Positions 6,142 through 46,114 of a stretch of DNA of 64,000 nucleotides are shown one piece after another. Both the position numbers and the translations under genes were made by a program. Below the pieces are notes generated by a model. It did not search any database, had not been told where the DNA came from, and was given only the letters and a program-made list of their open reading frames with translations. How positions within the stretch are numbered: position 1 is the first letter of the stretch; every line of letters begins with the position of its first letter. The DNA is from Pelosinus fermentans JBW45. Lineage in GTDB: Bacteria > Bacillota > Negativicutes > DSM-13327. The DNA lies in contig NZ_CP010978.1 of NCBI RefSeq assembly GCF_000271665.2, positions 156,501-220,500 on the forward strand. The letters run 5' to 3'.

Positions 6142-6561
6142 ATGAATTCTTTAGATGAATTGACACATGAGTTATTTACTTTTTTTAATGGTTTTTCTTC
6201 ATGGGAAAACTCCGTAATAAAGACGAGTGAACTGTCTGTTTCGGAAGCCCATGCCATAGAAATATTGGGAACACATGGTCAAATGAAGATGAAAACTCTT
6301 GCAGGGCATCTGGGAGTCACGACCGGTACCACTACGGTTACAGTTGATCGCCTGGAAAAGAAAGACTATGCCAGAAGAGAGTCTGTGAAGGAAGACCGTC
6401 GCATTCATTTAATTACGCTAACTCAAAAAGGTCAGCAGGCTTTTGCTGAGCATCATCAGTATCATTCTAATTTAACTGAACAGATACTTTCTGTTCTTTC
6501 CAATGAAGAAAATGAACAATTGATAAATTTACTTAAAAAAATAAATGCGGAGGCTTTTTAG
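6142..6561 (+). CDS. MarR family transcriptional regulator
   Basis: A 139-residue winged-helix repressor. The recognition region GVTTGTTTVTVDRLEKK and the wing ESVKEDRRIHLITLTQKGQ are typical of MarR. The ATG follows AAAGGAG. It is followed after 2 bp by a metal-pumping ATPase, so the two genes are transcribed together, and the repressor probably senses the pump's substrate or a related stress. A perfect inverted repeat over its own promoter (6083-6097) is the likely operator. The ligand cannot be read from sequence. Confidence 0.88.
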   Translation: MNSLDELTHELFTFFNGFSSWENSVIKTSELSVSEAHAIEILGTHGQMKMKTLAGHLGVTTGTTTVTVDRLEKKDYARRESVKEDRRIHLITLTQKGQQAFAEHHQYHSNLTEQILSVLSNEENEQLINLLKKINAEAF

Positions 6562-6563
6562 GT

Positions 6564-8468
6564 ATGGAAGTTGAAAGCAGACAAATGGCAAAATCAGAAA
6601 TTACTGAGCACGCTGAGCATATGGAACATGGGGCAGGAGGCCATGTTCGAGATTATGTGGTCATTGCATCCACATCGATCTTGTTATTAAGCAGTTGGTT
6701 TCAGTGGCTGCCACAAATTTTTGGAATTGATACAACGCTGATTGCAGCTATCATCGGTGGGGTACCTATTGTGAAAGAAGCAATTACAGCTATTTATAAA
6801 AGAGGAGATACCAGGGTTGGTCTCTTAGTAAGTATTGCAATTATTGCTTCCATTGCCATTGGTGAATATTTAGCAGCTGCTGAAGTTGCTCTTATTATGA
6901 CGATCGGAGAGATGTTAGAACACATCACCTTGGAAAAATCAAATACTGCATTAAAAAAACTTGCGGAACTATCACCATTGCAAGCTCGTATTATAGAGGA
7001 TGGAACAGAACGAGAAATTGCAGCCGAATTAGTACGGACTGGGGATAAGCTGTTGATAAAACCTGGAGAAAAAATTCCGGTTGATGGTATGGTAGTCAGT
7101 GGGCAGGCTACAGTCGATCAGGCTACGATAACGGGTGAATCTATACCTGTTGAATGTCGTAATGGTGCGAGTGTCTTCGGCGGTACGATTGTAACTATGG
7201 GGAGTATTGAGATTGTAGCGACGAAGGTTGGGCAAGATACGGCTTTAGGTCATATTATTCGAATGGTAAAAGAGGCTCAGGCCAATAAGGCACCGAGTGC
7301 GCGAATCATCGATCGCTGGGCGAATTGGTTTGTTCCATTAAGCTTGGCGATTGCAGTATTAGTCTACCTAGTAACGGGAGATATTGTACGAGGCGTTACA
7401 ATTTTAATTGTATTTTGCCCCTGTGCGATGTTATTGAGTACGCCTACCGCTGTGGCTGCAGCCATTGGGGCGGCGGCTCGTCGGGGTATTTTAATTAAGG
7501 GCGGGGAAATATTAGAAAAAGTGGGAGCACTAGATACGATTTTATTTGACAAAACAGGTACAATCACACTTGGGAAGCCTTCATTAAAAGAAATTCGCGG
7601 CTATAATGGCTGGCAAAGAAATGAGCTGCTGGCAATTGCAGCAGGAATCGAAAAACGCTCCGAGCATCATTTGGCAAAAGCAATTATTGAGGAGGCCCAA
7701 AAAGAAAACATATCCTTTGTTGAGCCATCTTATTGGGAGCCTGTCATTGGTCAAGGTATAGTTGCAGAAAAAGATGGTGACCATTTCTTATTGGGAAATC
7801 AATCCTTAATGGAATCCAAAGATATAGGGCTTACACCAGAGCAGCAGGAGTATTGTTCTGAAAACCAAAAATCAGGAGCCACCGTCGTTTTTATAGCCGT
7901 CAATGGCATGATAAGCGGGATACTGACAATACAAGATCCCATTCGGACGGGTTCGAAAGAGGCAATTAACGCCTTAAAACGTGAAAAAATTACAAGAATA
8001 GTGATGCTGACGGGCGATGCCTCAAGGGTTGGAGAGGCTGTTGGGAAGCAAGTGGATGTTCCTATCGTTCATGGAGATCTACTACCTACAGATAAAGTCA
8101 GCTATGTGGAAACATATCAACGTTCAGGCTGTAATGTAGCAATGATTGGAGATGGAATCAACGATGCTCCAGCGCTAGCCAAGGCAGATATTGGGATTGC
8201 CATGGGATACTCTGGAACGGACATTGCCATTGAGGCTGCGGATATTGTATTACTGTCCGATGACCTAAAAAAGGTGCCTGAGACAATACAGAAAAGCCGC
8301 AAGGCGATTCGTACCATTTGGCAGAATATTGTAGTAGCAAATATGATTAACTTTGCCGCAATTATTCTGGCTGCTCTTGGTCTGTTAGGACCTGTTGCCG
8401 CTGCTATTGTGCATAATGTTGGTTCGATTTTAGTCGTATTGAACTCTGCGCGTTTATTACGCAATTGA
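6564..8468 (+). CDS. Heavy-metal translocating P-type (P1B) ATPase
   Basis: A 634-residue inner-membrane ATPase. Visible: a short His-rich N-terminus (HAEHMEHGAGGH) with no CxxC metal-binding domain, the membrane metal site CPC (285-287), phosphorylation motif DKTGT with Asp329, TGES actuator loop, and the GDGINDAPALAKADIGIAMG hinge. The usual SEHP nucleotide-site motif reads SEHH (His368-His369), an uncommon change. The CPC motif suits Cu+, Ag+, Zn2+ or Cd2+; the sequence after it (MLLSTPTA) lies between the copper and zinc patterns, so I leave the ion open. Co-transcribed with marR, it probably serves metal efflux. Confidence 0.88.
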   Translation: MEVESRQMAKSEITEHAEHMEHGAGGHVRDYVVIASTSILLLSSWFQWLPQIFGIDTTLIAAIIGGVPIVKEAITAIYKRGDTRVGLLVSIAIIASIAIGEYLAAAEVALIMTIGEMLEHITLEKSNTALKKLAELSPLQARIIEDGTEREIAAELVRTGDKLLIKPGEKIPVDGMVVSGQATVDQATITGESIPVECRNGASVFGGTIVTMGSIEIVATKVGQDTALGHIIRMVKEAQANKAPSARIIDRWANWFVPLSLAIAVLVYLVTGDIVRGVTILIVFCPCAMLLSTPTAVAAAIGAAARRGILIKGGEILEKVGALDTILFDKTGTITLGKPSLKEIRGYNGWQRNELLAIAAGIEKRSEHHLAKAIIEEAQKENISFVEPSYWEPVIGQGIVAEKDGDHFLLGNQSLMESKDIGLTPEQQEYCSENQKSGATVVFIAVNGMISGILTIQDPIRTGSKEAINALKREKITRIVMLTGDASRVGEAVGKQVDVPIVHGDLLPTDKVSYVETYQRSGCNVAMIGDGINDAPALAKADIGIAMGYSGTDIAIEAADIVLLSDDLKKVPETIQKSRKAIRTIWQNIVVANMINFAAIILAALGLLGPVAAAIVHNVGSILVVLNSARLLRN

Positions 8469-8653: not shown

Positions 8654-9325
8654 ATGAAAAATCTAGGAGGACCGCAGGGAAAACAATTATTTAGCCAATT
8701 GCCTGGACCTATTGTAACCCAATATTTAAGTCACTGTCTTACTAAAAAATATAAAAAGAAAGCAGAGATTTTTGGACCAGAGGAGCATTCTGAGTATATT
8801 TATCTTGTGGTTAGCGGCAGAATTCGTGTGTATTTACGGTACCCAAACGGTAAAGAGTTCACTCTCACGCTGCTGGATGCGGGGGATACTTATAGTGGTC
8901 ATACCCGTGCTTTTGGTCAGGCGATTGCCGATAGCGAAATTTTATTTATTCCTGTAGATGCATTTCGAAATTTGCTCATGGAAGTTCCTTCCTTCGCGAT
9001 GACCGTAATCGGAGTGCTGGGAGACTCCTTAAAAAATTCAATTAACACCATTGAAAGTCTTGTTTTTAAAGAAGTGAATAAACGGCTCTATCAGTTCATT
9101 TATAGCCTGGCTTTGTCTAGTGACAGACAAGAATTACATTCCTTCCAGGTTAATATCGGGTTAACCCATCAGCAGATTGCTACGATTGTGGGAAGCACAA
9201 GGCAGACGGTGAACACATTCTTTAATAATCTGCAAAAAGAAGGAGTACTCATTCTTGGAAAGGATAAGATCATCATTCAAAAATTTGATATCATTATGGA
9301 GCGAGCCAAGGATGATGATGAATAG
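8654..9325 (+). CDS. cooA: CooA-type CO-sensing Crp/Fnr family activator
   Basis: A 223-residue protein with an N-terminal cyclic-nucleotide-binding-like sensor (about 35-120), a long dimer helix, and a C-terminal HTH with recognition helix GSTRQTVNTFFNNLQKEG. The segment AGDTYSGHTRAFGQAIAD matches the haem-pocket strand of CooA (Carboxydothermus: HTRAF-QA--D) and keeps the proximal haem ligand His83, equivalent to His77 of Rhodospirillum CooA. Ser81 occupies the place of the redox-switch Cys75. It lies directly upstream of cooS, and a perfect CooA-type box stands between them, which strongly supports the assignment. Haem binding itself is inferred. Confidence 0.85.
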   Translation: MKNLGGPQGKQLFSQLPGPIVTQYLSHCLTKKYKKKAEIFGPEEHSEYIYLVVSGRIRVYLRYPNGKEFTLTLLDAGDTYSGHTRAFGQAIADSEILFIPVDAFRNLLMEVPSFAMTVIGVLGDSLKNSINTIESLVFKEVNKRLYQFIYSLALSSDRQELHSFQVNIGLTHQQIATIVGSTRQTVNTFFNNLQKEGVLILGKDKIIIQKFDIIMERAKDDDE

Positions 9326-9350
9326 AAATATAAAAAAAAACATAAGATTC

Positions 9351-9366
9351 TGTCAGCTAGCCGACA
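9351..9366. promoter_or_regulatory. CooA binding site (TGTCA-N6-CGACA)
   Basis: TGTCA-GCTAGC-CGACA matches the known Rhodospirillum rubrum CooA consensus TGTCA-N6-CGACA at every specified base. Its centre is about 46 bp before a plausible start point set by TATAGA (9393-9398); no good -35 box is present. That is the arrangement expected for a class II activator-dependent promoter. It precedes cooS by 122 bp. Confidence 0.85.
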
Positions 9367-9488
9367 TTTTTATTTCCGTCTCTCTGCTAGTGTATAGATA
9401 AGTGGACTAAAGAACCGGGTGGATGTTTTTCTCCAGCTGGTTTAAAGTTGAACTTATTTTAGGATCAATTTGAGGGGGAGGATTTACA

Positions 9489-11450
9489 ATGCCTAAGACT
9501 CAGGATCACACTCATACGCAGAGGATCTCTTTGGATCATGACTTTGAAGTTCTTTACGAGAAGGCTTGTGAAGCAGGTATTGAGACAGCATTTTCTCGGG
9601 CAAAACAAACCCCCGTTCCTTGTCCTTTTGGGTCTGCAGGAGTTTGCTGTAGACACTGTTTGGAAGGTCCATGCCGTATAGGATTAAATGGCAAAGGACC
9701 CCAGGAAGGCATATGTGGAGCGAATGGAGATACGATTGTTGCTCGCAACTTATTAACGATGATGATCGAAGGTGCGGCAGGACACGCCGAGCATGGCAGA
9801 GAGACTGCCTTGGCATTATTAGAAGCCTCAGAGGGGCATTCTGATTATCAGATTAAAGGTGTGGAAAAGTTATATCAGGTAGCTGCTGGTCTGGGAATTG
9901 AAACGAATGGCAAAGCAGTGGCGGATATTGGAAAGCAAGTGGCTCTCAAGGCATTAGAAGACTTTCAGAAACAAGCAGGGGCGATGAATTGGCTAACGCT
10001 TCACGCCCAGCAGCAATCAATCGATAAGTGGGATGAGCTTGGTATAACCCCTGTTAACATTCATTTAGAGATTTCCAAAGCTGTTACCCGAACATCAATG
10101 GGATGCGATGCTGATCCGGTAAACCTTCTTTTGGGCTGTTTGACCATGGGACTGGTAGATGGCTTTGGCGGTCTGCATTTGTCTTCGGATTTACAAGACA
10201 TTCTGTTTGGTGTACCTAAATTGGTGAAATCCAACTTTAGACTTGGTGTAATAAAAAAAGAAATGGTTAATATTGCAGTACATGGTCATGTTCCTTTATT
10301 GTCGGAGAAAATTGTAGAATGGTCTCGGAAATTATCGGAAGAAGCAAAAGCTGCCGGAGCCGCAGGCATTAATGTTGTGGGGATATGCTGTTCGGGCAAT
10401 GAAATGCTCATGCGTCATGGAATACCTGCAGCTTCTAGTTTTTCATCTCAGGAACTGGTCATTGTAACGGGTATGCTCGAAGCAATGATCGTAGACGTGC
10501 AGTGTATTATGCCTGGCATTCAAAAGGTAGCGGAGTGTTATCACACCGAGATTATTACAACTCTGCCTTATGTTAAAATTGCAGGATCTACCCATGTTGA
10601 CTTTCATTCGGATAAGGCGGATAAAGCGGCTCAGGATATCGTTCGTAAAGCAATTGCCAATTTCCCCAAAAGAGATCATCAGAAAATTACCAGCTTTACC
10701 GGGACTGTAGAAGCATATGCGGGTTTTTCCAATGAACAAATCATAGAAGCGCTAAGTGCGTTAAATAAAGAAGATCCCCTTAAGCCCCTGCTTGATGCAA
10801 TAAGCAGCGGAGCCATTCGAGGGGTTGCAGCCATCGTTGGCTGTACAAATGTCCGTGAATTTCAAGACTGGGGAAATGTTACTGTTGCCAAAGAGTTACT
10901 CAAGAATAATGTTCTAGTCGTTGCTACAGGTTGCTCGGCTCATTCTTTAGCAAAACATAACTTGATGAACATGCAAGGCTTGGAATACTGTGGTGAATCC
11001 TTGCGGGGTGTCTTAAAGGCGATTGGGCAAGCTGTTGGTCTTGAATCTCTGCCGCCGACTCTTCATATGGGAAGCTGTGTGGATAATTCCCGTCCTGCCG
11101 ATCTGTTGACGGCTGTGGCAAATCGATTAGGCGTGGAAGTTAAGGATTTGCCTGCTGTTGGATCTTGCCCAGAAACCCATAGCCCGAAAGCATTGGTCAT
11201 TGGTACGTACTTTTTAGCCAATGGAGTGGATGTTCACGTTGGTGTGAATCCTCAAGTATCTGGTTCCCAGTTTGTCACAGATGTACTATGTAATGGTGCG
11301 AAAGATGACGGTTTGAATTTAGAAAAGCTTTTTGGCGGTAAATTGATCTATGAAAAAGATCCGGTGAAGGCAGCAGCTATTTTGTTAAGACGAATTGAAG
11401 AAAAGCGCCTGGCGCTGGGCCTCAGTTCAAAATTGGAGTCAGAAGTATGA
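9489..11450 (+). CDS. cooS: Anaerobic Ni-Fe carbon monoxide dehydrogenase catalytic subunit
   Basis: A 653-residue cytoplasmic enzyme that oxidises CO to CO2 with electrons to ferredoxin. Cysteines 45 and 53 fit the D-cluster and 54, 57, 62, 76 the B-cluster, with exactly the spacing of Carboxydothermus CODH-II. C-cluster ligands align with a constant offset of six: His267, Cys301, Cys339, Cys452, and Cys in the GCSAHS and GSCVDNS motifs. All metal ligands are therefore present. It overlaps cooC by 4 bp. No cooF ferredoxin, hydrogenase or acetyl-CoA synthase gene is near, so this looks like a stand-alone CODH used for CO oxidation, redox supply or detoxification. Probably under CooA control. 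Confidence 0.97.
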   Translation: MPKTQDHTHTQRISLDHDFEVLYEKACEAGIETAFSRAKQTPVPCPFGSAGVCCRHCLEGPCRIGLNGKGPQEGICGANGDTIVARNLLTMMIEGAAGHAEHGRETALALLEASEGHSDYQIKGVEKLYQVAAGLGIETNGKAVADIGKQVALKALEDFQKQAGAMNWLTLHAQQQSIDKWDELGITPVNIHLEISKAVTRTSMGCDADPVNLLLGCLTMGLVDGFGGLHLSSDLQDILFGVPKLVKSNFRLGVIKKEMVNIAVHGHVPLLSEKIVEWSRKLSEEAKAAGAAGINVVGICCSGNEMLMRHGIPAASSFSSQELVIVTGMLEAMIVDVQCIMPGIQKVAECYHTEIITTLPYVKIAGSTHVDFHSDKADKAAQDIVRKAIANFPKRDHQKITSFTGTVEAYAGFSNEQIIEALSALNKEDPLKPLLDAISSGAIRGVAAIVGCTNVREFQDWGNVTVAKELLKNNVLVVATGCSAHSLAKHNLMNMQGLEYCGESLRGVLKAIGQAVGLESLPPTLHMGSCVDNSRPADLLTAVANRLGVEVKDLPAVGSCPETHSPKALVIGTYFLANGVDVHVGVNPQVSGSQFVTDVLCNGAKDDGLNLEKLFGGKLIYEKDPVKAAAILLRRIEEKRLALGLSSKLESEV

Positions 11451-12259
11451 AAGAAAAAGGGATAAAGATTGCCATATCCGGTAAGGGCGGTGTGGGTAAA
11501 ACAACGCTGGCATCACTGCTGTGCCATATTTTATCCCGAAAGAAAAGTAAGGTGCTTGCCGTTGATGCAGATCCTGATGCCAATCTTGGTATGGCACTGG
11601 GATTCAGCTCAGCGCTTCTCGCTCAAGCAACAACCATTGCCCAGGATGAGAAGCTGATTGAAGAACGTACTGGAGCAGTTCCCGGAGAATTCGGTGGCTG
11701 GTTTGCACTAAACCCCTTTGTGGAAGATATACCGGAGAAATATGTAGTAAAACAAGGGAATATCAGTCTATTGCAGATGGGGGCTAAATCCACAGGTGGT
11801 ACAGGATGCGCATGTCCCCAAAGTATATTGCTGAAATCTCTCTTAAACCATTTGGTAGTAGAGCGGGATGAGGCAGTTATTGTTGATATGGAAGCAGGTT
11901 TAGAGCATTTAGGGCGGGGTACTGCCGAAGGGGTAGATGCCTTTATTATCGTAGTGGAGCCTGGGCAGCGCAGCTTTGCTACTGCACGTGCCGTTGCCAA
12001 AATGGCCAAAGATTTAAGTGTTCAAAATGTATATGTTGTTGTGAGTAAGCTTCACGGAGTCAATCCATCCTCTATCAAAGATGAACTGCAGGATTTAAAC
12101 GTAATTGGTTTTCTGCCCTATAAAGTGGAGGCAGTTTATGCCGATCTGCAAGGAAAGACGATCTTTGATTTGTGTCCCGACCTGGTAGAAGAAGCCGCTG
12201 CTATCTTAGATCGAATTGACAAAGAGTTGGCAGAGGCTATTGAAAACAGCCAAGTGTAA
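11447..12259 (+). CDS. cooC: CooC-type nickel-insertion ATPase for CODH maturation
   Basis: A 270-residue MinD/ParA-class P-loop ATPase that loads nickel into the CODH C-cluster. The deviant Walker A is SGKGGVGKTT (11-20), the switch region VDADPDANLG, and the nickel-binding CxC pair is Cys121 and Cys123 in TGCACPQ, as in Carboxydothermus CooC1. The start overlaps the cooS stop (ATGA), implying translational coupling. Length is normal. Confidence 0.93.
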   Translation: MKEKGIKIAISGKGGVGKTTLASLLCHILSRKKSKVLAVDADPDANLGMALGFSSALLAQATTIAQDEKLIEERTGAVPGEFGGWFALNPFVEDIPEKYVVKQGNISLLQMGAKSTGGTGCACPQSILLKSLLNHLVVERDEAVIVDMEAGLEHLGRGTAEGVDAFIIVVEPGQRSFATARAVAKMAKDLSVQNVYVVVSKLHGVNPSSIKDELQDLNVIGFLPYKVEAVYADLQGKTIFDLCPDLVEEAAAILDRIDKELAEAIENSQV

Positions 12260-12269
12260 ATAAGTAAAT

Positions 12270-12316
12270 AGGAAGAAGCCAGGAGTATCAATTGACCATA
12301 CTCCTGGCTTCTTCCT
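12270..12316 (+). terminator. Long hairpin after cooC
   Basis: A 19-bp perfect stem: the arm 12270-12288 (AGGAAGAAGCCAGGAGTAT) is the exact reverse complement of 12298-12316, with a 9-nt loop. There is no proper U-tract, so it could stop transcription weakly or protect the 3' end of the cooSC mRNA. Confidence 0.65.
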
Positions 12317-12334: not shown

Positions 12335-12480
12335 ATGAACTCTAAAGGTATAAGACCGCTGATGCGGCATCTTCGCGTCTTCGCGGTTCAAAATCGTTTT
12401 ATTTTACCCTATCTCTCTTTTCTCTGTGTTCTCTGCGCCTCTGGGTTCGGTTCTGTTTTTATGTTTTAAAAGATAACTAT
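12335..12480. repeat. Degenerate composite of dispersed hairpin repeats, copy 2
   Basis: Three pieces stand in series: a decayed left arm of the ACAAAG dialect with its GCCGC-like mini-hairpin (CCGCTGATGCGGCA, 12357-12370), a right arm of the CGAAG dialect (CTTCGCGTCTTCGCGGTTCA), and a right arm of the CGCAGAG dialect (TCTGTGTTCTCTGCGCCTCT). It ends with a TTTTAAAAGATAAC tail. It lies between cooC and the ABC operon. Confidence 0.65.
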
Positions 12481-12535: not shown

Positions 12536-13489
12536 GTGAAAAAAATCATTGTATTCCTACTCATATGTGCTATGACGGTTGTTCTCGGAGCTTGCGCTAA
12601 CAGTAAAAAAGAAGGCGCTGATTCAAAGTCGGGACAACTGCAGAATATTACCATTGGGCTTATGCCTGATGTGGATTCCATTCCCTTCATTATTGCCCAG
12701 GAAAAGGGATATTTTAAAGAAGAAGGAGTAACGGTAATACTCAAACCATTTCGAAGTGCTGTAGACCGGGATAGTGCCCTGCAAAGCGGCAATTTAGATG
12801 GAGCGATTTCGGATATGCTGGCCGAAGCCTTTGCTAAGGAAGGTGGATTTGATACCGTGATTACCTCTTTAACAAGCGGCAGTTATAAGCTGGTCATTAA
12901 CAAAGATGAAAAGATTACATCCATTAAAGAGCTGAAAGGCAAGGATGTCGCTATATCAAAAAATACAATTATTGAATATGTAACGGACAAGATTATGGCA
13001 GAAGGGGGACTTACTCCAGAGGACATTCATAAAGTTGTGATCCCTCAAATTCCCACAAGGTTGGAGATGCTGCAAAGCGGCAAGGTGGCTGCTGCCACTC
13101 TGCCGGAGCCCATGGCAAGTATTGCTGTGCGCAACGGTGGCAAGTTACTAAATAGTTCAGATCAACTGGGCATCAATCCTGGGGTTCTGATCTTTACTAC
13201 TAAGGCAGTGAATGAAAAAGATAAGGAACTTCAAGGGATGTATCGAGCTTACAATAAAGCCATAGAGTATCTATCCAAGGAGCCTATGGAAAATTATATT
13301 GACCTGTTAATAGAAAAAGGCGGTTTTCCTGAAAGTGTGAAAGGCGCGCTGGTCCTGCCTCAATATAAGAAAGCCGTGGCACCAGGGGCAGCCGATGTTG
13401 AAGATTGTGTGACATGGCTTCAAGCCAGGCAATTGATCCAAAAGGTCTATCCCTACAAAGAATTGGTTGATGATCGGTTTGTAAGGTAA
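12536..13489 (+). CDS. ABC transporter substrate-binding lipoprotein, NitT/TauT (SsuA/THI5-like) family
   Basis: A 317-residue lipoprotein with a GTG start. The signal peptide ends in the lipobox LGAC. The mature part has the SsuA/NMT1 pattern: IGLMPDVDSIPFIIAQEKGYF, then the FRSAVDRDSALQSGNLDGAISDM hinge segment and a late LPEPMASIAV. It would bind a small organic anion (sulfonate, nitrate-like or pyrimidine type) outside the cytoplasmic membrane. The permease and ATPase follow in one overlapping operon. Nothing shows the substrate, and being next to cooSC is not proof of a CODH role because a strong hairpin and a repeat lie between. Confidence 0.85.
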   Translation: MKKIIVFLLICAMTVVLGACANSKKEGADSKSGQLQNITIGLMPDVDSIPFIIAQEKGYFKEEGVTVILKPFRSAVDRDSALQSGNLDGAISDMLAEAFAKEGGFDTVITSLTSGSYKLVINKDEKITSIKELKGKDVAISKNTIIEYVTDKIMAEGGLTPEDIHKVVIPQIPTRLEMLQSGKVAAATLPEPMASIAVRNGGKLLNSSDQLGINPGVLIFTTKAVNEKDKELQGMYRAYNKAIEYLSKEPMENYIDLLIEKGGFPESVKGALVLPQYKKAVAPGAADVEDCVTWLQARQLIQKVYPYKELVDDRFVR

Positions 13490-14241
13490 TGATTCAAATT
13501 AAGAACTTAAACGTTACCTATGAAGCCATGGGAGAGGGATACGCTGCTCTTGAAAATATTAATCTGGAGCTTGGGGCAGGAGAGACCTGCGCTATTATTG
13601 GACCTTCTGGCTGCGGCAAGTCCACGCTTTTAAAAGTATTGGCAGGGATTATCAGAAAATATGAAGGTGTAGTAGAAATAAATGGACAGCCTATTATGCC
13701 GATGCAGCAGAAAATTGGCTTTATTCCCCAAAACTATGGACTGCTGCCTTGGAAGAATGTATATGAAAATATCCGTTTGAGTGCCAAAATTAAAAATAAA
13801 AAAGATCGCGATCATTCTAAAGAACTAGATTTTTTTATTCAGCAGTTAGGGCTGGCAGGCTTGGAAGGCAGGTATCCTGGAGAATTAAGTGGAGGGCAGC
13901 AGCAGCGAGTTGCCTTGGCTCGTTCCTTTCTGCTAAAGCCGGATTTGCTATTAATGGATGAGCCCTTTTCTGCCTTAGATGCGATGACGCGAGAAGAAAT
14001 ACAAAATGTTTTCTTGGATGTTTGGCGCAAATATTCCGTTTCCACCATTCTTGTCACTCACTATGTAGAAGAAGCTTTGTATTTAGGACAAAAGATTGTA
14101 ATTTTATCTGGTATTCCCGGAACGATCAGCAAAATAATTGATAATCCTCTCTTTGGCATAGAAAATATTCGAAACCATCAAGATTTTTTTCAACTCAGCC
14201 TTACACTGCGAAAAATGATAAAAGAGGATTGGTCAAAATGA
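13489..14241 (+). CDS. ABC transporter ATP-binding protein, NitT/TauT family
   Basis: A 250-residue ATPase. Walker A GPSGCGKST, Q-loop FIPQNYGLLPWKNV, signature LSGGQQQRVALAR, Walker B LLLMDEPFSALD and switch His in TILVTHYVEEAL are all present. Its ATG shares one base with the stop of the binding-protein gene (TAATG) and its own stop overlaps the permease start, so the three genes are translationally coupled. It powers import by the SsuB/TauB-like system. Confidence 0.92.
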   Translation: MIQIKNLNVTYEAMGEGYAALENINLELGAGETCAIIGPSGCGKSTLLKVLAGIIRKYEGVVEINGQPIMPMQQKIGFIPQNYGLLPWKNVYENIRLSAKIKNKKDRDHSKELDFFIQQLGLAGLEGRYPGELSGGQQQRVALARSFLLKPDLLLMDEPFSALDAMTREEIQNVFLDVWRKYSVSTILVTHYVEEALYLGQKIVILSGIPGTISKIIDNPLFGIENIRNHQDFFQLSLTLRKMIKEDWSK

Positions 14242-14984
14242 TAGAACAGCGAAGGGGAGTTTGGTATCTTTACGGCATACTGATTTTTTTCACTTTATGG
14301 TATATGGCTGCCAGCTTAGTAAATCTGCCAATTATCCCAACGCCTTGGATTGTGATGAAGAATTTACTGGGGATTTTTATTCCCAAAATTCTAATTCACG
14401 GTTCCTATAGTTTATGGCGTATTGTGGCGGGGGTTATTTTAGCTGTGATTGTCGGGGTTCCTGTAGGTCTATGCATGGGTTATTTTCCAAAATGGGACAG
14501 GGCCTTATCGCCCATTGTATATTTAACCTATCCCATACCTAAAATTGCATTATTACCGATTATGATGCTGTTGTTGGGATTAGGAGAAGTATCAAAAATC
14601 CTTATGATTTTTTTAATCATTGTTTTTCAGGTCATTATAGCCGTACGGGATGGAGTCAAAAGTATACCGAAGGAAACATATTATCCTTTATATTCATTAG
14701 GGGCTACATTTGGTGATATTTTCCGGGAAATTCTCATACCTGCTTCCATGCCTAAATTTTTGACATCGATACGAGTGGCTATGGCAACGGCAATTTCCGT
14801 GCTGTTTTTTACAGAAACATTTGGCACTGAGTATGGGATGGGATATTTCATTATGGATGCCTGGATGCGGGTAAATTATTTGGAAATGTATTCAGGTATC
14901 GTGGTGCTAAGCTGCATGGGGCTGGTTTTATTCGGTGTGATTGATTATTTGGATCGAAAAATATGCCACTGGCAGTATAAATAA
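14238..14984 (+). CDS. ABC transporter permease, NitT/TauT family
   Basis: A 248-residue integral membrane protein with about six hydrophobic segments. The coupling-helix (EAA-like) region is the stretch SLGATFGDIFREILIPASMP. The ATG at 14238 overlaps the ATPase stop (ATGA) and has AAAGAGG ten bases upstream, so it is preferred to an in-frame TTG nine bases earlier. It is the channel subunit of the importer encoded by the two preceding genes. Confidence 0.9.
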   Translation: MIEQRRGVWYLYGILIFFTLWYMAASLVNLPIIPTPWIVMKNLLGIFIPKILIHGSYSLWRIVAGVILAVIVGVPVGLCMGYFPKWDRALSPIVYLTYPIPKIALLPIMMLLLGLGEVSKILMIFLIIVFQVIIAVRDGVKSIPKETYYPLYSLGATFGDIFREILIPASMPKFLTSIRVAMATAISVLFFTETFGTEYGMGYFIMDAWMRVNYLEMYSGIVVLSCMGLVLFGVIDYLDRKICHWQYK

Positions 14985-45901: not shown

Positions 45902-45991
45902 TTGAACCGCGAAGTCGCGAAGCAGTACGAAGAACAGGTCGAGATATGTGTATTCTCTATTCTTCGTAGTCTTCGCATCATTGCGGTTCAA
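45902..45991. repeat. Dispersed hairpin repeat, CGAAG dialect, copy 10
   Basis: TTGAACCGCGAAGTCGCGAA and GCAGTACGAAGAAC on the left; TTCTTCGTAGTCTTCGCATC and ATTGCGGTTCAA on the right. Same design as the other copies but a third arm vocabulary. Confidence 0.8.
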
Positions 45992-46114
45992 AAATTTTTT
46001 ATATAATTGGTTTAATTGCATATAGTCAAATGCAGTTCAAAGAAATCCTTTCGATACAAAATATAGGATGGGAAAAAGTTGTACCTTCTCACGAGGGGTT
46101 AGGAGTGAGCACCA

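Follow-up and report, generated by a model that had tools for sequence, protein, structure and literature searches.

The stretch of DNA analysed here (the window) comprises positions 156501-220500, or 64 kb, of the complete 5.38-Mb genome of Pelosinus fermentans JBW45, a soil-type bacterium. The window carries a compact set of three genes, cooA, cooS and cooC, that encode a CooA-type regulator, the catalytic subunit of a carbon monoxide (CO) dehydrogenase (CODH) and its nickel-insertion ATPase (Table 1). A gap of 163 nt separates cooA from cooS and contains the palindrome TGTCAGCTAGCCGACA, the predicted CooA operator, and cooS and cooC overlap by the 4 bp ATGA (11447-11450). The initial annotation, made from the sequence alone, had placed the genes, the operator and the overlap exactly where we found them. 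It had also noted that cooF, hydrogenase and acetyl-CoA synthase (ACS) genes are missing nearby, which held: no cooF or hydrogenase was seen among the open reading frames of the window, and for ACS (CdhC, PF03598) there was no match in the Pelosinus genome or in seven other members of the genus. Two [NiFe] hydrogenase loci are present in the genome, 2-3 Mb distant from the coo genes. The locus has neither the cooF and energy-converting hydrogenase (ECH) genes linked to cooS that define hydrogenogenic CODH/ECH units, nor the ACS that defines CODH/ACS (Wood-Ljungdahl) units.

The product of cooA, at first described as a Crp/Fnr-like protein fitting CooA, could be assigned to the CooA family through its phmmer matches to the solved structures 1ft9 and 2fmy. 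Its best solved relative is CooA-1 of Carboxydothermus hydrogenoformans (2fmy, E-value 7e-41), and 2fmy, 2hkx, 6cpb and the Rhodospirillum rubrum protein (1ft9, 6e-23) all ranked ahead of the CRPs, the best of which reached 6e-17. Foldseek likewise placed 2fmy first (E-value 2e-19) when queried with a structure model of CooA, although this model was of moderate confidence (predicted local distance difference test, pLDDT, 73; predicted template modelling score, pTM, 0.47) and added little to the sequence comparison. The axial haem histidine is His77 in R. rubrum CooA and His82 in C. hydrogenoformans CooA. H83 of the Pelosinus protein aligns with this residue and, like the haem-domain residues around it, does not vary in 19 homologues. 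In the CooA tree, the Pelosinus regulator falls on the CooA-2 side (support 100/98), the label CooA-2 being inferred from the adjacency to CODH-II in C. islandicus, and its recognition helix reads RQTVN...N. Pelosinus CooA appears to combine a CooA-2-like sensor domain with a retained TGTC-type helix and operator. It is predicted to bind haem, sense CO and bind DNA in a CO-dependent manner.

The operator is an exact TGTCA-N6-CGACA, as initially annotated. This bare 10-base motif is weak evidence, because at one mismatch it occurs in the window at chance level (2 found vs 2.04 expected). Genome-wide, TGTC-N8-GACA is not enriched (33 vs 48 in a reversed control). By contrast, when the cooA-cooS gap was shuffled 200,000 times by mononucleotides, TGTCR-N6-YGACA arose in only 91 cases. 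The fuller consensus TGTCRGCNNGCYGACA, which includes the published Desulfovibrio site TGTCGGCTAGCCGACA, had a single match without mismatches, at 9351-9366, and none with one mismatch across all 5.38 Mb. We therefore claim no regulon beyond cooSC. The operator agrees in 15 of 16 bases with the D. vulgaris cooSC site (PMC545781). It is also conserved, being kept in five further Pelosinus genomes (six in all), and in four close Pelosinus relatives the block from TTCTGTCAGC to TATAGATAAGT is invariant. In genome G006, the most divergent of these, where CooA is 71% identical and the gap has otherwise diverged, the site TGTCGGCTAGCTGACA is the exact reverse complement of the window operator. This fits binding by a dimer, since the half-sites TGTCA and TGTCG allow either orientation.

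In 12 of 14 lineages, exactly 21 nt separate the operator from a TAnnnT hexamer, and at any other gap of 10 to 35 nt such a hexamer was found in at most 3 of the 14. The published CooA site ahead of the Carboxydocella ECH operon/cooM (L048:13655, TGTCATCTTAGCGACA) is likewise followed by 21 nt and TATACT. If the hexamer occupies -12 to -7, a gap of 21 nt centres the operator at -41.5, predicting a class II activator. This is the class II position of CRP-type activators. The palindrome might instead be the intrinsic terminator of cooA, a hairpin with a T-run whose likeness to CooA sites is incidental, as it lies 25 nt 3' of the cooA stop codon and is followed by TTTTT. Extension of the palindrome does produce a strong hairpin with T-run in G006, Carboxydocella and Tepidibacillus (z-scores -4.9, -5.0 and -7.0), where it may act as an added terminator. 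The window palindrome, however, folds as RNA no better than shuffled sequences (z-score -0.75, with an A.C mismatch in the stem), as do those of Heliorestis, the Negativicutes genome G114 and Halodesulfovibrio, and it was not reported by a terminator scan. Moreover, neither the fixed distance to the -10 element nor the likeness to published CooA sites would be expected of a terminator. We thus reject this explanation for the window palindrome as highly improbable and retain the operator reading.

Turning to the enzyme, CooS scored 674 bits against TIGR01702 (cut-off 478) and has all C-, B- and D-cluster ligands as well as the acid-base His and Lys. CooC matched the solved CooC 3kje (E-value 4e-41) and contains a CbiA domain. 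In the classification of Inoue 2019, clade B Ni-CODHs reportedly occur with a NitT/TauT-type ATP-binding cassette (ABC) transporter, groups B-1 to B-3 carrying Asp or Glu for the second C-cluster Cys, which group B-4 is said to retain. Pelosinus CooS has this Cys, unlike B-1 to B-3, and is compatible with membership in B-4. Its best solved relative is C. hydrogenoformans CODH-IV (6elq), for which a role in oxidative stress has been proposed (PMC6557876). CooS could accordingly serve another purpose than CO scavenging, such as oxidative-stress defence or CO2 reduction. We regard this as rather unlikely, because the CODH-IV relatives form a sister group with cooF, not cooA, upstream, regulation by a CO-sensing protein is in keeping with CO as the substrate, and the genome encodes no ACS to use CO made from CO2.

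The linkage of cooA to this type of CooS extends well beyond Pelosinus. CooS matches in 398 Bacillota genomes fell into two identity bands, one at 60-65% and the next at 53% or below. The upper band (at least 60%) is a single clade with full tree support. At all of its loci inspected, cooA lies directly 5' on the same strand and cooF is missing from this place, and in most, within the stretches covered, cooC follows directly 3'. In the next band (50-53% identical), by contrast, cooF mostly takes the place of cooA. The upper band ranges over Negativicutes (Pelosinus, G114), Heliorestis, Desulfotomaculum/Desulforamulus/Desulfoscipio, Carboxydocella and Tepidibacillus, the closest named relatives with the locus being P. 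fermentans UBA6563, P. propionicus DSM 13327 and uncultured Pelosinus. In G006, as in other genera, the three genes and the operator are retained in quite different surroundings, which bears out the "self-contained" module of the initial annotation. Of note, in Desulforamulus aquiferis Bs105 (L059:3057-6506) the cooA, cooS and cooC frames are in several pieces, reflecting decay or an assembly error.

Taken together, we propose that the locus encodes a self-contained CO dehydrogenase unit that is induced by CO under the control of CooA, a reading to which we assign a probability of roughly 85%. It draws on the gene identities, the active-site residues, the uniqueness and conservation of the operator, the promoter register and the linkage of cooA to the CooS clade; from these we infer haem and CO binding, DNA binding, activation, the electron route and the physiological role. 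CO would bind to the haem-containing CooA, a CRP/FNR dimer, and render it active for DNA binding. CooA on the operator would then recruit RNA polymerase as a class II activator, driving transcription of cooS-cooC. CooC would load nickel into the C-cluster of CooS, which would oxidize CO to CO2. Because there is no dedicated CooF or linked hydrogenase, the electrons would probably enter the general ferredoxin pool, pointing to CO scavenging or detoxification, as proposed for Desulfovibrio, rather than hydrogenogenic growth. Considering that ACS is missing as well, CO scavenging into the ferredoxin pool should be the simplest reading.

Several observations weigh against a CO-inducible unit. At the promoter, TAGTGT, the Pelosinus hexamer at gap 21, matches only three of six -10 consensus bases, and using TATAGA instead would put the operator at -46.5, half a turn off. 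The module is also missing in G005, another complete genome of the genus, and is therefore dispensable; together with its retention in changed surroundings, this indicates that its four parts (regulator, operator, enzyme and chaperone) relocate or disappear as a unit. Regarding the sensor, Pro2 of R. rubrum CooA is the second haem ligand, and the Cys two residues before the axial His is the ferric ligand. Pelosinus CooA begins with MKNLGG, without Pro2, and has Ser81 in the place of this residue, Cys75. As the protein also lies on the CooA-2 side of the tree, away from the best-studied members, it might control cooSC through this site but no longer sense CO, responding for example to redox state or another haem ligand. 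Nevertheless, His83 and its haem-domain surroundings are invariant, and Ser replaces Cys in most homologues examined. C. hydrogenoformans CooA-2 has been studied as a haem protein that binds CO (corrigendum PMC6041983), and its near relative in C. islandicus belongs to the Pelosinus CooA clade. Pro2 is also missing in homologues on the CooA-2 side and is an R. rubrum-type feature rather than one of the whole family. Loss of CO sensing is thus quite improbable.

Table 1. Features of the cooA-cooSC locus (positions in the window) and operator-related sites of compared loci (positions with locus labels).
Feature	Position	Strand	Description	Evidence
cooA	8654-9325	+	CooA-type (CRP/FNR) regulator, 223 residues	phmmer, Foldseek of the model, tree with CooA homologues
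CooA operator TGTCAGCTAGCCGACA (predicted)	9351-9366	+	centre at -41.5 of the predicted cooS promoter	genome scan, conservation
Predicted -10 TAGTGT	9388-9393	+	exactly 21 nt 3' of the operator; predicted +1 at about 9400	
Alternative -10 TATAGA	9393-9398	+	better-looking, 5 bp downstream of TAGTGT	
cooS	9489-11450	+	Ni,Fe CO dehydrogenase catalytic subunit, 653 residues	TIGR01702, ligand check, tree
cooC	11447-12259	+	P-loop ATPase for nickel insertion, 270 residues	3kje match, CbiA domain
GTAAA-N4-TTTAC palindrome	L051:7216-7231; L160 and L161 at 1501		candidate CooA-2 operator at -41.5	
Hairpin-extended operators	L018:10745-10775; L048:10720-10745; L063:10664-10690		may double as cooA terminator	

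The arrangement itself is not new, and the Pelosinus locus is a further member of a module type already known in part. An "enigmatic" CooA-controlled cooSC operon was described in Carboxydocella thermautotrophica in 2018 (PMC6085454), cooA-cooS-cooC is known in Desulfovibrio (PMC2901600, PMC545781), and a 2020 figure shows cooA among the cooS neighbours in Desulfofundulus (PMC7701048). The Carboxydocella locus (L048) shares with Pelosinus a 61% identical CooS, the order cooA-[CooA site]-cooS-cooC, the operator class and an operator-to-promoter distance of 20-21 nt, but it has CODH/ECH genes just 3' and a CooA-1-type regulator, both lacking in Pelosinus. In the Desulfovibrio type, represented here by Halodesulfovibrio (L060, L061), the gene order is the same and the operator TGTCGGCTAGCCGACA differs in one base, whereas CooS, about 45% identical, falls into a distant clade and CooA into another branch. 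R. rubrum CooA and its cooF promoter share the CRP-type haem regulator with axial His and the operator TGTCR-N6-YGACA; Pelosinus differs in lacking Pro2 and Cys75, cooF and a linked hydrogenase. The Carboxydothermus CooA-2/cooF-cooS-II loci (L051, L160, L161) resemble Pelosinus in the side of the CooA tree, the SGH haem motif and the operator at -41.5, and differ in the helix RQRLA, the palindrome YGTAAA-N4-TTTACR and a CODH-II accompanied by cooF. The "enigmatic" Carboxydocella unit represents a widespread module in which regulator, operator, enzyme and nickel chaperone travel together. The window locus adds a predicted CO-regulated CO dehydrogenase to the genus Pelosinus, where the ACS search gave no match.

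Comparison of these modules revealed two operator classes within the CooA family. The Desulfotomaculum-type modules carry a different palindrome in the cooA-cooS gap: YGTAAA-N4-TTTACR replaces TGTCR-N6-YGACA, with place and register unchanged. The helix RQTV(S/N)...N goes with TGTC sites and RQTL(A/N)...(K/R) with GTAAA sites, with no exceptions in 23 modules. The GTAAA-type CooAs form one clade (100/99) and hence reflect one evolutionary event, so that the perfect split between helix and operator is not statistical proof; independent origins of the change were rejected, as the tree requires one change only. In Desulfofundulus (L049), CooA and site of the GTAAA type accompany a CooS resembling CODH-II, indicating that the operator class follows the CooA helix and not the CODH type. 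The GTAAA palindrome, with 21 nt and TATACT after it, also lies 5' of cooF-cooS-II in three genomes of Carboxydothermus (C. islandicus and two further genus members), a place for which CooA sites had not been recognised before. We consider it likely that CooA underwent a switch in DNA specificity, in which the RQ(T/R)L(A/N)...(K/R) sub-clade, including the CODH-II-side CooA of Carboxydothermus, reads YGTAAA-N4-TTTACR rather than TGTCR-N6-YGACA at the same -41.5 position. CO upregulates cooS-II, cooA2 and cooF1 of C. pertinax 20-640 fold, and the only recognised CooA site was the one 5' of the ECH genes (PMC6557876). If shared by C. pertinax, the GTAAA site would explain the CO induction of cooF-cooS-II-cooA2. 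Published gel shifts with C. hydrogenoformans CooA-2 involved other promoters (PMC6041983), so the specificity may not be strict. The pairing of palindrome and recognition helix, with a fixed 21 nt to the -10 element, would provide an operator code for the CooA family, which could explain CO-induced operons devoid of the textbook site, such as CODH-II in Carboxydothermus.

Regarding the neighbourhood, a MarR regulator and a heavy-metal P-type ATPase (6142-8468) lie directly 5' of cooA, an arrangement shared by the close Pelosinus relatives whose flanks are annotated but not by G006, and NitT/TauT-type ABC transporter genes follow 3' of cooC (12536-14984). Both flanking sets are outside the module. 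Including the ABC genes on the basis of clade B was not supported, as no such genes were noticed around cooS either in G006 or in most relatives; an uncultured Selenomonadales has a 68-78% identical set (L057:16274-18725) at a distance of about 6 kb from its coo genes. Directly 3' of cooC, a long near-perfect inverted repeat, GGAAGAAGCCAGGAGTA...TACTCCTGGCTTCTTCC (12270-12316), is probably the end of the cooSC transcript. The genome also encodes a second, lone CODH-like protein of 710 residues (G000:C1:4779459-4781330; L002:1243-3375, L022), which has Asn for the acid-base His and Ser for the second D-cluster Cys, and is similar to group D-2 of Inoue 2019, which is poorly understood. Finally, a dispersed intergenic repeat, TCTTCGCGGTTCAAAA, occurs at 12378-12393 and 45978-45993 (2 found vs 0.03 expected), and a stretch resembling it is found 5' of cooA in P. 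fermentans UBA6563.

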